Shown: piece by piece, positions 29,984 through 59,325 of the stretch
Position numbering within the stretch: position 1 is the first letter of the stretch
Layout: every line of letters starts with the position of its first letter
Source: Fervidobacterium pennivorans
Lineage (GTDB): Bacteria; Thermotogota; Thermotogae; Thermotogales; Fervidobacteriaceae
NCBI RefSeq assembly: GCF_001644665.1
Contig: NZ_CP011393.1
Span: forward strand, 558,001 to 622,000
Length of the DNA stretch: 64,000 bases
Reading direction: 5' to 3'
Notes under the pieces: model-generated
Database searches by the model: none
The model's input: only the letters and a program-made list of their open reading frames with translations
What the model was told of the DNA's origin: nothing
Program-made: the position numbers and the translations under genes

Positions 29984-30601
29984 TTACTTTGCGTTCATCT
30001 TTCTGCTTCCGGGTTTCACAGCAGGTATACCGGATTTACAAAGTGGACAATCTTCAGGGTTGTAAGTAGGGAAATCGAACTTCACAAGATAGAAGTACGG
30101 CTTCCCTTTAAATTTTTGATTGATTTCTTCAAATGGATTCTCTTTTCCTGACCTGTTTATAACACTTGCAAATCCTACGATTTGCCCGCCGTAGCTTTCA
30201 ACAACTTCTACAACTTCGAATGTTGATTTTCCTGTCGTAACAACATCTTCGACAATAAGCACCTTTTCACCTTTGTGTATTTCAAATCCCCTTCTCAATT
30301 TCATGACATTGTCTTCACGCTCGGCAAAAATCGCGCGTGCGTTCAACTTCTTTCCTACTTCATATGCTACGATAATACCACCAAGTGCTGGACCGACAAC
30401 AACATCAACATCCACTCCAGCATCTAAGATTTTCCTTGCTATTAATTCCCCGATTTGTTCTCCATATTTCGGATATTCGAAAACCTTAGCACATTGGACG
30501 TAATTGGGGGAATGTAAACCAGAAGAGAGTATGAAGTGACCATCAAGCAAAGCACCTGTCTTTCTGAGGATTTCTAAAACCTTTTCATTTATCATCTCCA
30601 T
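29984..30601 (-). CDS. pyrE: Orotate phosphoribosyltransferase
   Basis: A 205-aa PRTase converting orotate and PRPP to OMP. It shows ALLDGHFILSSGLHS, VVGPALGGIIVAYEVG, and the PRPP loop VLIVEDVVTTGKSTFEVV. It also has a cysteine pair (CPLCKSG) near the C-terminus, unusual for PyrE, which may bind metal. It is the last gene of the pyr operon. ATG 30601 overlaps the pyrF stop by 10 nt, with AGGTGAG upstream. Confidence 0.95.
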   Translation of the reverse strand: MEMINEKVLEILRKTGALLDGHFILSSGLHSPNYVQCAKVFEYPKYGEQIGELIARKILDAGVDVDVVVGPALGGIIVAYEVGKKLNARAIFAEREDNVMKLRRGFEIHKGEKVLIVEDVVTTGKSTFEVVEVVESYGGQIVGFASVINRSGKENPFEEINQKFKGKPYFYLVKFDFPTYNPEDCPLCKSGIPAVKPGSRKMNAK

Positions 30602-31272
30602 AATCTCACCTTCTCCTTTATAGATTGTATCTTTTCTCCAGGGTCTTTTGCCTTGTACACTTCTCTCCCAAGTACAGCGAAGTCCGCTATTCCAAAAATG
30701 TCCCATAACGATACCACATCTTTTTGGTCGTCTTTTGATTGCTCCATACGTATACCGGGAACCAGTATAGCTCCACCTATCTTGCGTCGCATCTTTATCG
30801 CCCACATACCAGGTAGCACAAACGAAGAGCCCAACCTCGCAAGTCCTAAAATGATATGTTCGAAGTCCTCGAGCTTTCCTGGTAGCGATGTTAACTTTAT
30901 CACGGAGAAAATCATCTTGTCAGTTGATTCAAGAGCAGCTTTAACGCTCTCTAACCCAGCGTTAGCGTGGACTGTGAAACCAATGATTGCAGGATGTTCC
31001 CAAGCTTTTATCGACCTTGCTACTGTTGACGGTATATCAGAAAATTTCAAATCAAGAATAACTTTATATCCTTTTTCGTAGAAATAATCGAGCAGCCTTT
31101 TTCCTTGCACTGCAAGGTTGTGCCCAACCTTAACATAATCAAAACTTCCGTATTTTTCGATGAAATCGATAGGGTCTTCCATGTCTAAGCTAAGTACCGG
31201 TTCTGTTACAACCCAGTTTTTCCTCTCGACTTTTTCCATCTTTTCGCTATCGACAGGAGTGACTATCAACAT
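30592..31272 (-). CDS. pyrF: Orotidine 5'-phosphate decarboxylase
   Basis: A 226-aa TIM-barrel enzyme making UMP. The catalytic DxKxxD array is DLKFSDIP, followed by GFTVHANAG. The C-terminal phosphate-binding part contains ILVPGIR and DFAVLGREVY. ATG 31272 has GGAGGAGGGG upstream; pyrD ends 16 nt before. Confidence 0.94.
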   Translation of the reverse strand: MLIVTPVDSEKMEKVERKNWVVTEPVLSLDMEDPIDFIEKYGSFDYVKVGHNLAVQGKRLLDYFYEKGYKVILDLKFSDIPSTVARSIKAWEHPAIIGFTVHANAGLESVKAALESTDKMIFSVIKLTSLPGKLEDFEHIILGLARLGSSFVLPGMWAIKMRRKIGGAILVPGIRMEQSKDDQKDVVSLWDIFGIADFAVLGREVYKAKDPGEKIQSIKEKVRLWR

Positions 31273-31288
31273 AAAACCCCCTCCTCCT

Positions 31289-32164
31289 TTAGAAGTTATT
31301 ATTTTTTTCATTCTTTAAAAACTCCATAAGTTCTTTTCCTATTTTGTTGATTATTTCCTCATTTTGGAACAGCGCACTTCCTATGCTCACTGCGTTCGCT
31401 CCAAATTGGAGCATCTCTTTTGCTTGTTGAGCAGTGTATATACCACCGGATGCGATTATGAAAATATCCGGTAAAACCTTCCTCACCTCGTAAACAACTC
31501 TAAGTGCGATAGGATAAAGTGCAGGACCTGAAAGCCCTCCAAGTAAAACTTGTCCTTCGGGGTTCACGATAAGTCCACGGATAGTATTGATAACGGTGAC
31601 ACCATTCCAACCTTCCAGTGCAACAATCTTTGCCATTTCTTCAACAAACCCACTCTCTATTCCAAGTTTTGCAATGATAAACGCATCCGTTTCTTTTCTT
31701 ATCTCCTTCAGAAGTTTCTTCCATTCTTCTCTATCCGACATGATTGAAAGTCCGCCGTGATGAACGTTTGGACAGCTAAAATTGTATTCGATAGCCAAAA
31801 ACTTATCTAAGTAAGGTTTCATAAGTTTGGTTATCTCAATGTACTCTTCGAACGAATCCCCTCCAAGGCTCAAAATAGGTGGAACCTTTGAAAGTAAAAC
31901 ATCTAATTCCCCACTATCTATCATCTTTTTGAGACCATCAAAACCAGGATTCTCGAGTCCGATGCGGTTTATCATGAAAACGTTGGATGCGTATATCCTC
32001 GGTGGTTTGTTACCAACCTTTGAATGTAGAGTTATCGTCTTCAGAGTGTATGCACCAACGTACGACCAATCTATTGAATCTACATTGAGATACTCACCAA
32101 AACCCCCAGGTCCGGAGGCTATAACTATGGGTGTTCTCAGTTTGAGTGTCTTTGAACTTGCCAT
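31289..32164 (-). CDS. pyrD: Dihydroorotate dehydrogenase B, catalytic subunit
   Basis: A 291-aa FMN enzyme of class 1B. It has the FMN-binding IVIASGPGGFGEY, active-site base Cys in NFSCPNVHHGG, GVTVINTIRG, GGLSGPALYPIAL and IIASGGI. It works with PyrK to use NAD+ as electron acceptor. ATG 32164 (AGAGGTGA upstream) overlaps the end of pyrK by 28 nt. Confidence 0.95.
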   Translation of the reverse strand: MASSKTLKLRTPIVIASGPGGFGEYLNVDSIDWSYVGAYTLKTITLHSKVGNKPPRIYASNVFMINRIGLENPGFDGLKKMIDSGELDVLLSKVPPILSLGGDSFEEYIEITKLMKPYLDKFLAIEYNFSCPNVHHGGLSIMSDREEWKKLLKEIRKETDAFIIAKLGIESGFVEEMAKIVALEGWNGVTVINTIRGLIVNPEGQVLLGGLSGPALYPIALRVVYEVRKVLPDIFIIASGGIYTAQQAKEMLQFGANAVSIGSALFQNEEIINKIGKELMEFLKNEKNNNF

Positions 32165-32874
32165 ACATTATCACCTCTAAAAACAGGTCCGTCTGTGCAG
32201 ACGTGTTTTATACCATGGATTGTTTCCACAGCGCATCCTTTGCAAGCACCTATTCCACAAGCCATGTACTCGTTCAGAGAAACGTAAACAACCTTATTTG
32301 GCATGTTTTTTACAGCAAGCTCTTCCATGACTTTGGAACCGCTCACGAATATCCAGTCGTAGAATGAGTGATTTAATTCACTGAGCAAATTTAAAAACCC
32401 TTCATTTCCTACAACTACTTTCATCTTTAATTTCTTCACAATTTTGTCGTTCAGTTCAGTTCTTGAGGCCACAATTAATGGTATATCGAAATGTTCGGAA
32501 AGATGGATTCCCTCGGCAAGACAAGACGGCGCCACAATAACTGCACCGTTTCCGCTTTCAGGGACAAACGGATTACCAAGCGGTGCAAGGACATTGAGTT
32601 TTTCGTTGGTCTTAACTATGTATTCGCTTCCCTTACCTGCGATTTTTACTGAGATAGCAAGCTCCATTTTGTTTAACCTTCCAAGCGTATAAGGTTTCCT
32701 TGTTAGTCCTGCACCATCTACACTTACCATGCAAAACTGTCCTGGTAGAAAATCGAAATCTTCTTCAAAGGTGATTAAGTAAGTATTTTGGGTTATCTCT
32801 TCAACACTCCTTTTAGTCAGTAGAAAGGCTTTGTACTTTGTTTGCTTTTTCACTTCAACGGAGAAATTCGCCAT
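32137..32874 (-). CDS. pyrK: Dihydroorotate dehydrogenase B, electron-transfer subunit
   Basis: A 245-aa FAD/[2Fe-2S] subunit. The N-terminal FAD domain has LPGQFCMVSV and RKPYTLGR. The C-terminal iron-sulphur cluster is in ACGIGACKGCAVET with the fourth Cys in HVCTDGPVF. The NAD-binding middle is compact and divergent (VIVAPSCLAEGI), with an extra Cys. ATG 32874 is preferred (AGGTGGG upstream); the in-frame ATG 32895 lacks a site. The 3' end of pyrC overlaps its start. Confidence 0.93.
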   Translation of the reverse strand: MANFSVEVKKQTKYKAFLLTKRSVEEITQNTYLITFEEDFDFLPGQFCMVSVDGAGLTRKPYTLGRLNKMELAISVKIAGKGSEYIVKTNEKLNVLAPLGNPFVPESGNGAVIVAPSCLAEGIHLSEHFDIPLIVASRTELNDKIVKKLKMKVVVGNEGFLNLLSELNHSFYDWIFVSGSKVMEELAVKNMPNKVVYVSLNEYMACGIGACKGCAVETIHGIKHVCTDGPVFRGDNVWQVQRHSN

Positions 32875-34009
32875 TCCAGAACACCCACCTTCCATTTTTT
32901 CTTATTCCAAGGACCTTTCCTTTCAATTTATAACCATTAAATGCACAGTTTTTGCCTTTACTAAAGAATTTGTTGCTTTCAACAATATACTCGGCCCTTT
33001 CATCAATCAACACAGCGTCGTTGGGGAATCTAAAACCAAGTTCTTCATAACTTTTTCCTAACACACTAAGCGGATTTATTGTAAGATTTTTCAAAACGAG
33101 TTCGATATCCTCGAACACTTTCAGATACACAGAAAACGCTACTTCTATATGTGAACTTCCATATGGAGCTTTTTCAAAATCTGCTGGCTTTTCAGGATGC
33201 GGTGCATGGTCTGTTGCAAAGCATGTTATTATACCCTTTCTCACGGCATCTACGAGGATGTGTCTATCTTTTGAAATCGGGGGGTTAATCTTTTGGTTTG
33301 GATTGTTTATCTCCTCTGGGAGGAAGAACACGTGATGAGGGGTTACTTCACAGGTAATCTTCACCTTTTTTCTTAGATACTCTATAGTCTCCAAAGATTG
33401 TGAGGTCGAGACATGCTGAATGTGAAATCTATTAAAGCCGAACTCAAGCCCTGTTAACACTGTTCTGAATATCGCAATTGCCTCGTTTGAGTATGTACGC
33501 ACTGCGTTAGGTACTTTCGAACCTATGTAGAAATCTCCTGGAACTTCGTGCAATTGTGAATGGTCAAATACCAAAGCACTCTTTTTCTCCGAGAAAGCTT
33601 TTACTAAATCTGGATTTGTGTACCGAATTCCGTCTGTTGAGTAACCAGCGATGTTGTTTGTATAGTTCCCAAGCTTATTTAAATCGTTTATCTCTCCAAA
33701 TAAGCTGATAGTATGAAGAAAGTGAACATCTTTGTCTTTTGAAAGTTCAAAGTGATTCTTTAGAACGTCTAAATTTTCTATGGGTGGTCTTGTGTTAGGT
33801 TGAATTACGCATACTCCAAAACCACCAGCTAAAGCTGCATGAGAGAGTGTGTCGTAATCCTCTTGGTCATTTAACCTAACATGTGTGTGTAAGTCTACAA
33901 ATGGTGGTGTAAGTATTAACGAATCAACGTCTTGGTCTATTTTCTCTGGGAAGTCAATCGGAATTTGTTCACTTTTAATTCTCCCAGTTGATATATCAAA
34001 TACTCTCAT
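32855..34009 (-). CDS. pyrC: Dihydroorotase
   Basis: A 384-aa zinc amidohydrolase closing carbamoyl-aspartate to dihydroorotate. It has the metal motif DLHTHVR, the substrate-binding QPNTRPP, TCEVTPHHVF, and CFATDHAPH with the catalytic Asp. It is the first structural gene of pyrC-K-D-F-E. ATG 34009 has AAGGGGG upstream. Its first 14 nt overlap the end of a leader ORF. No pyrB or carAB lies in the window. Confidence 0.94.
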   Translation of the reverse strand: MRVFDISTGRIKSEQIPIDFPEKIDQDVDSLILTPPFVDLHTHVRLNDQEDYDTLSHAALAGGFGVCVIQPNTRPPIENLDVLKNHFELSKDKDVHFLHTISLFGEINDLNKLGNYTNNIAGYSTDGIRYTNPDLVKAFSEKKSALVFDHSQLHEVPGDFYIGSKVPNAVRTYSNEAIAIFRTVLTGLEFGFNRFHIQHVSTSQSLETIEYLRKKVKITCEVTPHHVFFLPEEINNPNQKINPPISKDRHILVDAVRKGIITCFATDHAPHPEKPADFEKAPYGSSHIEVAFSVYLKVFEDIELVLKNLTINPLSVLGKSYEELGFRFPNDAVLIDERAEYIVESNKFFSKGKNCAFNGYKLKGKVLGIRKNGRWVFWNGEFLR

Positions 34010-34241
34010 GCAGAAGCCCCCTTTGGTGTTGATGACATACACATAAGGGTAATAAAAAAGGGACCTCAAAAGAGGTCCCTTTTCTAACAAAACCAAATAT
34101 TGATAACTTTTCGAAAAGGTTTCTACAAAAACCTAAGATTATACTCTTCAAAAGAGCCGGTACAAAATTTACAAAGTTATTGACGTTGTTTGCCACGCTT
34201 CTCTTTCTCTGGTTTTGGCCTCGCTGGACCAAATTAACCAT
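33996..34241 (-). CDS. pyr-operon leader ORF running through the attenuator
   Basis: An uninterrupted 81-codon frame starting at ATG 34241. It has a strong GGAGGTG site 5 nt upstream and lies only about 20 nt after the predicted transcription start. The peptide (MVNLVQRGQNQRKRS...) has no recognisable domain; it starts basic and becomes hydrophobic. The frame passes through a pause-like hairpin and the terminator at 34056-34083, then stops at 33998-33996, 14 nt inside pyrC. This geometry matches the enteric pyrBI leader, where a translating ribosome disrupts the terminator when UTP is low. Function is inferred. Confidence 0.6.
   Translation of the reverse strand: MVNLVQRGQNQRKRSVANNVNNFVNFVPALLKSIILGFCRNLFEKLSIFGFVRKGTSFEVPFLLPLCVCHQHQRGLLHESI
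34051..34083 (-). terminator. Attenuator terminator in the pyr leader
   Basis: A 12-bp perfect stem (AAAAGGGACCTC with its complement, loop of four) at 34056-34083, followed on the minus strand by TTTTTTATT. It lies between the pyr promoter and pyrC, inside the leader ORF. Confidence 0.88.
34117..34134 (-). promoter_or_regulatory. Possible RNA polymerase pause hairpin in the pyr leader
   Basis: On the minus strand AGGTTT-N6-AAACCT forms a 6-bp hairpin followed by TTTTCG. It lies 34 nt before the attenuator, where a UTP-sensitive pause would be expected. Confidence 0.4.
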
Positions 34242-34269
34242 ATTTACACCTCCAAACTTTTCGCAAGGA

Positions 34270-34299
34270 ATTTTACCATAAAGGGTTTGATAGTGTCAA
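34270..34299 (-). promoter_or_regulatory. Promoter of the pyr operon
   Basis: A perfect TTGACA (34299-34294), an 18-bp spacer and TAAAAT (34275-34270). Transcription should begin near 34,263, leaving about 250 nt of leader before pyrC. Confidence 0.8.
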
Positions 34300-56896: not shown

Positions 56897-56951
56897 GAAT
56901 TTTCATTCACTAAAGGGTTAGATAAGTGTCGAAAGATGTTAACTTATCTAT

Positions 56952-57077
56952 CGTACTCTCTCCCATCCGGACTTTCACCGTCGGCTCCGGAATTTCACCG
57001 GATCAACCCTCTGTATTTATAGAGGGCTCGCGGGCTTTCACCGCCGGTCGGGAATTTCACCCTGCCCCGAGAGTACG
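56952..57077 (-). promoter_or_regulatory. FMN riboswitch (RFN element)
   Basis: The full RFN consensus is present on the minus strand: GGGGCAGGGTGAAATTCCCG, CCGGCGGTGAAAGCCCGCGA, GATCCGGTGAAATTCCGGAG, and CGACGGTGAAAGTCCGGATG. It is closed by a 9-bp P1 stem (56952-56960 with 57069-57077). FMN binding should favour the downstream terminator. Confidence 0.97.
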
Positions 57078-57106
57078 TAAAAGATTTAACTAACTTTCTT
57101 GTCTAT

Positions 57107-59077: not shown

Positions 59078-59143
59078 ACACAAACCCTCCCTCTTTGCAA
59101 AAATTTGTTGCCATCCCCAGGCTACGTGGTGGATGGCCACCTT

Positions 59144-59294
59144 CCTTCGTATGTCAGGTCTCCCGACTCGCGGATCATCCTACTCCCTGCGCCTTCCCAG
59201 CTTTAAAGCCAGTGGCACTGTGCAGGTTTCGTCCCCGCTCACGGTGGCGGCCCCGTGCCGGATTCTCACCGGACTTCCCTTGGACATACGAAGG
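59144..59294 (-). promoter_or_regulatory. Cobalamin riboswitch
   Basis: The classic elements are seen on the minus strand: AAGTCCGGTGAGAATCCGGC, CGGGGCCGCCACCGTGAG, the B12 box GCCACTGG, GGGAAGGCGCAGGGAGTAGG and ATGATCCGCGAGTCGGGAGA. They are closed by a 12-bp P1 stem (59144-59155 with 59283-59294). No terminator follows, so control is probably at translation of btuF. Confidence 0.96.
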
Positions 59295-59325
59295 GAGGTT
59301 TATTTTAACTTGTTTTCTAGTTCAT

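Follow-up and report, generated by a model that had tools for sequence, protein, structure and literature searches.

A putative PyrR-gated, ribosome-mediated attenuator in front of the pyrCKDFE operon of Fervidobacterium pennivorans

Results

The pyr operon and its leader

The DNA analysed here, a stretch of 64,000 nucleotides of the Fervidobacterium pennivorans genome (G000) that we call the window, contains on its minus strand a leader followed by the genes pyrC-pyrK-pyrD-pyrF-pyrE. The first gene of the operon, pyrC, encodes dihydroorotase (32855..34009; NF006840, 542 bits). The genes pyrK (dihydroorotate dehydrogenase electron transfer subunit, 32137..32895) and pyrD (dihydroorotate dehydrogenase, 31289..32164) were assigned by their best families under the curated cut-offs, and pyrF (orotidine-5'-phosphate decarboxylase, 30592..31311; TIGR01740) and pyrE (orotate phosphoribosyltransferase, 29984..30601; TIGR01367) scored above theirs, with the start of pyrE placed by its family match. 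FMN and cobalamin riboswitches exceeding the Rfam threshold are also found in the window (56951-57078 and 59136-59303, both on the minus strand).

The leader, on the minus strand throughout, begins with a promoter of the extended-TG form TTGACA-18-TAAAAT (34270..34299; 11 of 12 consensus positions matched), made up of TTGACA at 34299-34294, a spacer of 18 nt and TAAAAT at 34275-34270; counterparts of the -35 and -10 boxes were judged by eye in eight pyrC leaders and in L018, the pyrC leader of genome G071. A Shine-Dalgarno (SD) sequence GGAGGTG (34247..34253) and an ATG (34241-34239) open a frame of 81 codons (33996..34241), whose TGA stop (33998-33996) falls 14 nt within pyrC (ATG at 34009-34007). 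Within this frame lies an intrinsic terminator (34054..34083) with a 12-bp stem (34083-34056) and a U tail, for which folding gave -19.8 kcal/mol; a simple terminator scan of the window listed no terminator at the leader site because the stem extends into the T tract. The 60 nt ahead of the terminator (34084..34143; 47% U) form a candidate pausing region. The promoter, ribosome site, 81-codon frame, in-frame terminator and stop inside pyrC had been described in an earlier sequence-only reading of the window, and all of them were found in place. In the window and some relatives, the 5' arm of the terminator carries ACCUC (34072-34083), complementary to GGAGGU of the leader SD (34247-34253), and the two pair in folds of partial transcripts.

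A predicted PyrR binding loop on the leader start

A predicted PyrR binding loop, UGGUUAAUUUGGUCCAGCGAGGCCAAAACCA, which the sequence-only reading had missed, lies at 34210..34240 on the minus strand and scores 49.9 bits with R1, a covariance model built from 14 Thermotogota loops only. Its lower stem starts at the G of the leader ATG, and leader codons 1-10 (ATGGTTAATTTGGTCCAGCGAGGCCAAAAC, MVNLVQRGQN) are PyrR loop sequence. The hairpin has the UCC(N)GNGAGG loop region, the bulged upper stem, the internal loop and the lower stem of such loops. An Rfam search at the gathering threshold returned no match at the leader site; RF00515 was the top-scoring family for the region, yet at 30.2 bits against a gathering value of 54, and since that model covers an entire attenuator, the homology claimed here is that of the binding loop alone. 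R1 also detected, at 30.6-31.7 bits and E values of about 2e-5 to 4e-5, the Firmicute pyr-leader loops that precede pyrR in Bacillus velezensis, Lactobacillus kefiranofaciens and Paenibacillus cellulosilyticus, and it weakly matched the Bacillus pyrB loop; the model contains none of these. Two-sided stem changes numbered 18, compared with 7.3 after shuffling, a count reached in 0 of 500 shuffles; the lower stem alternates between GG/CC and CU/AG and the upper stem between GC and CG. Judged on sequence and covariation, the Thermotogota loop is homologous to Firmicute PyrR binding loops. One further match to the loop pattern came from a Planctomycete and, on its sequence alone, was taken as chance.

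The same genome encodes PyrR outside the pyr operon (G000:C1:45739-46260); the protein scores 232 bits, above the NF003549 cut-off, and matches a solved PyrR structure at 196.9 bits. A search for literature on PyrR in Fervidobacterium returned no relevant paper. PyrR was found in 42 of 103 Thermotogota genomes. R1 loops occurred in all 28 Thermotogales genomes bearing PyrR and in just one of the 16 in which PyrR was not detected, namely G073, which is 60% complete. Neither PyrR nor the loop was detected in the Thermotogales genomes G084, G085 and those of family f3, in which pyr regulation must therefore differ or be absent.

Each of the nine readable pyrC leaders carries the predicted loop at the start of its frame. 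In L018 (2904-2874, minus strand) the core GAGAGACC replaces GAGAGGCC and the R1 score is 34.2 bits, so that PyrR binding may be weaker or altered there, though the frame is intact. In L012 and L014, the best SD matches a UUG start three codons on, within the loop.

Conservation of the leader frame

In eight pyrC leaders, the frame that the loop dictates stays open past the terminator and the two other frames are closed; in the ninth, L018, the frame is open too. For the window alone, an open frame of this kind has P=0.024 by dinucleotide shuffling, and per-leader values range from 0.004 to 0.23, with log10 P summing to -13.6 over the eight pyrC leaders. With a near-identical pair counted once, log10 P is about -12, which gives the seven lineages a joint P of about 1e-12. 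The DNA that separates loop from terminator is 44-58% identical by global alignment, mostly near the shuffled level, apart from two close pairs at 91% and 94%. The leader DNA is thus mostly close to background similarity, and the frames can therefore be treated as near-independent tests, about seven cases in all. Synonymous and non-synonymous codon changes in the two close pairs (4/6 and 3/6) are too few to judge selection.

An SD-preceded in-frame start was found in all eight pyrC leaders tested, and SD-led frames extend as far as the terminator in every one of 14 Thermotogota leaders but in none of four Firmicute controls. An equivalent terminator hairpin is present in the pyrC leaders of all relatives, and the leader stop lies 5-80 nt past it. 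The encoded peptide is not conserved past the part dictated by the loop. An alignment of relatives, which the sequence-only reading had proposed as a check, therefore came out as that reading expected: start, frame and terminator are kept in all nine readable pyrC leaders, the ribosome site in the eight tested for it, and the peptide varies; stops in the leader frame ahead of the terminator, sought in the same nine, occur in none.

U-rich tract and pairing between loop and terminator

In eight pyrC leaders, the 60 nt ahead of the terminator contain 35-53% U (mean about 45%), whereas the 36 other terminators of these loci average 30%, and 5.6% of them reach 43%. The U-rich stretch noted earlier in the window is accordingly a feature kept in relatives, and purE-type leaders (described below) likewise have 36-48% U. 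The conservation of this tract makes a contribution from UTP sensing possible. The pause-like hairpin reported with it (34117..34134, minus strand) does occur in the window, but in the closest relative one of its stem pairs is lost through a G>A change, and a conserved pause hairpin was rejected; taken as a whole, the region shows no unusual degree of structure (z -1.9 to +1.7).

Competition between loop and terminator was assessed by folding partial transcripts ending in the terminator loop and counting the pairs that the PyrR loop forms with the 5' arm of the terminator. The expected number of such pairs was 0.00-0.40 for the pyrC leaders and 0.97-6.69 for four Firmicute controls, so that by thermodynamic folding a mutually exclusive antiterminator of the Bacillus type does not appear in the pyrC leaders. 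Equilibrium probabilities of the terminator were high in Thermotogota leaders and Firmicute controls alike, and since the hairpin folds in the controls as well, simple fold probabilities do not discriminate and were set aside. Long-range complementarity between the sequence directly after the loop and that directly before the terminator was seen in the window, where the helix has z of about -2.9, and in three other leaders; it was absent from L011, L012 and L017. These foldings suggest that pyrC leaders do not share the Firmicute arrangement as a conserved trait, and an accessory antiterminator-like pairing is possible in some species. The terminator 5' arm often has GGACC or GGACU, complementary to GGUCC of the loop; among 40 terminators, L009, L012 and L013 rank in the top 5% for this complementarity, which is ordinary in the remaining leaders and can be called suggestive only.

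Discussion

According to the above comparisons, the pyrC leader is very probably a PyrR-gated, ribosome-mediated transcription attenuator. The transcript would begin about 25 nt before the leader AUG. When UMP is scarce, PyrR would be off the loop, and a ribosome could load at once, translate through the loop and follow RNA polymerase into the terminator region, where it would suppress the hairpin and allow pyrCKDFE to be transcribed. With a frame that spans the terminator, the ribosome would keep the hairpin from forming; ribosomes repress a terminator that lies close to their stop codon or upstream of it, and repression is lost once the stop sits more than 27 nt before the terminator (PMC4824070). 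When UMP is plentiful, PyrR-UMP, reported as the inhibitory form in other bacteria (PMC10942264), would clamp the loop, the leader would not be initiated, and with no ribosome behind the polymerase the terminator would stop transcription. PyrR-UMP should block ribosome entry because the lower stem includes the G of the start codon; in two relatives, it would cover the SD and the UUG start instead. Binding by this PyrR, the initiation block and ribosome-mediated antitermination are steps that we infer, and ribosome-dependent attenuation by a leader frame spanning the terminator is well supported at the level of sequence comparison.

Other arrangements could be considered for the same parts. The leader shares with the Bacillus/Firmicute PyrR attenuators (RF00515) a homologous PyrR and a homologous binding loop, and if it worked as they do, the loop would serve as an anti-antiterminator against an antiterminator and the open frame would be incidental. 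The complementarity of the terminator arm to GGUCC and the long-range pairing of some leaders would fit such a scheme, which is nevertheless unlikely: unlike in the Firmicute controls, loop and terminator arm barely compete in pyrC leaders and SD-led frames reach the terminator, three leaders lack the long-range pairing, the arm complementarity is weak relative to other terminators, and the conserved frames would be left unexplained. A further difference from the Firmicute type is that the element scores under the RF00515 gathering threshold. With enterobacterial pyrBI, in whose pyrL leader coupling prevents formation of the terminator hairpin (PMC5021804), the pyrC leader has in common a U-rich region followed by a terminator that the leader frame runs through. 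The ribosome-dependent half of the pyrBI-like attenuation originally proposed for the window is well supported, but its other half, UTP-dependent coupling in which PyrR has no role, is scarcely credible, since a near-invariant predicted PyrR loop overlaps the start codon, pyrR is present in the genome, and loops and pyrR co-occur across the order. The pause hairpin of pyrBI has no conserved equivalent here, and because the target of an RNA-binding protein is predicted on the start codon, the pyrC leader is not a pyrBI attenuator.

It could also be supposed that the leader acts on pyrC translation rather than on antitermination, with PyrR repressing pyrC via the leader, as the leader frame stops within or beside the pyrC start in the window and in L010, L011, L012 and L015. 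The overlap with pyrC, first noticed in the window, is real there but not constant: the leaders L013, L014, L017 and L018 end sooner, ahead of the ribosome site of pyrC itself, and a strong in-frame terminator is present in all leaders, which makes such coupling highly improbable. An extension of the PyrR-gated attenuator, rather than its opposite, is a hybrid with two inputs, in which PyrR gates leader initiation and UTP-sensitive pausing of the polymerase in the U-rich tract sets how near the ribosome trails it, as in enteric pyrBI. We regard this as a tentative option: the U content of the pyrC and purE-type leaders speaks for it, but the pause hairpin lacks conservation, and hydrophobic codons or avoidance of structure would also yield U-richness. 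More doubtful is a fuller version that senses UMP via PyrR and UTP via pausing and in which, in addition, the ribosome crossing the translated loop displaces or excludes PyrR. If true, a two-input leader would unite the Gram-positive and enteric pyrimidine switches.

The closest known relative of the PyrR-gated, ribosome-mediated attenuator appears to be in the pyr operon of Thermus strain ZO5, for which Van de Casteele et al. 1997 reportedly described PyrR attenuation with a translating ribosome replacing the antiterminator. In both systems PyrR would act together with a leader frame that extends to an intrinsic terminator, and a ribosome would do the work of an antiterminator; a loop on the leader start, a frame to the terminator and the lack of an antiterminator, which define the Thermus type, are all found in the predicted layout of the pyrC leaders. 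We regard the match as a lead. Thermus ZO5 belongs to another phylum, and further apparent differences are that in the pyrC leaders the loop starts in the start codon and is translated, that the long frame (65-97 codons) spans the whole terminator, and that pyrR lies outside the operon. To our knowledge, a ribosome-mediated PyrR attenuator has been proposed for Thermus only, without comparative or genetic proof, and we know of no comparable published comparative support. The present scheme is a variant of this previously proposed PyrR-ribosome attenuation, and its comparative support is the new part: seven near-independent leaders retain loop, start, frame and terminator as the rest drifts, which is strong support of this kind and places the device in Thermotogota, whose pyrC elements fall under the Rfam threshold.

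The loop was found in three placements within the order. At the pyrC operons of Fervidobacterium and a sister genus, it begins in the start codon of the leader, whose frame extends through the terminator. At purE-type loci, the 3' arm of the loop is the SD of a leader of 13-67 codons whose end lies within, shortly before or past the terminator; such loops precede purE operons in four genomes of another genus (g3) of the same family and purE in two Fervidobacterium-group genomes. At uraA (uracil permease), order-wide and in a few others, the 3' arm forms the SD of the gene itself and there is no leader. The second predicted PyrR loop of the F. pennivorans genome is of this last kind (G000:C1:2044889-2044919; L122, loop at about 890-920), and uraA would probably be under direct translational repression by PyrR. 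PyrR-dependent translational repression has been described for Mycobacterium smegmatis, to judge from the title of Fields and Switzer 2007 as cited in PMC13328217. A predicted PyrR loop over a translation start is common to that type and to the loci described here, and uraA fits it directly; unlike that type, the pyrC loop lies on a leader and the output would be transcription termination, the loop covering the structural gene's own SD or start at uraA and not at pyrC. One regulator would thus use the same loop in three ways within the order: at pyrC on the start of a leader, at purE on the SD of a leader, and at uraA on the SD of the gene itself. This suggests that PyrR may ancestrally block translation starts, the antiterminator being one lineage's solution.

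At the purE loci, PyrR, a pyrimidine regulator, is apparently wired to purine synthesis. In the g3 loci L115 (1344-5262, genome G080), L116, L070 and L072, a loop, a short leader and a terminator stand before a purine operon, which in L115 reads purE-purC-purQ-purL, and the same arrangement precedes purE in L097 (G071) and L074 (G072).
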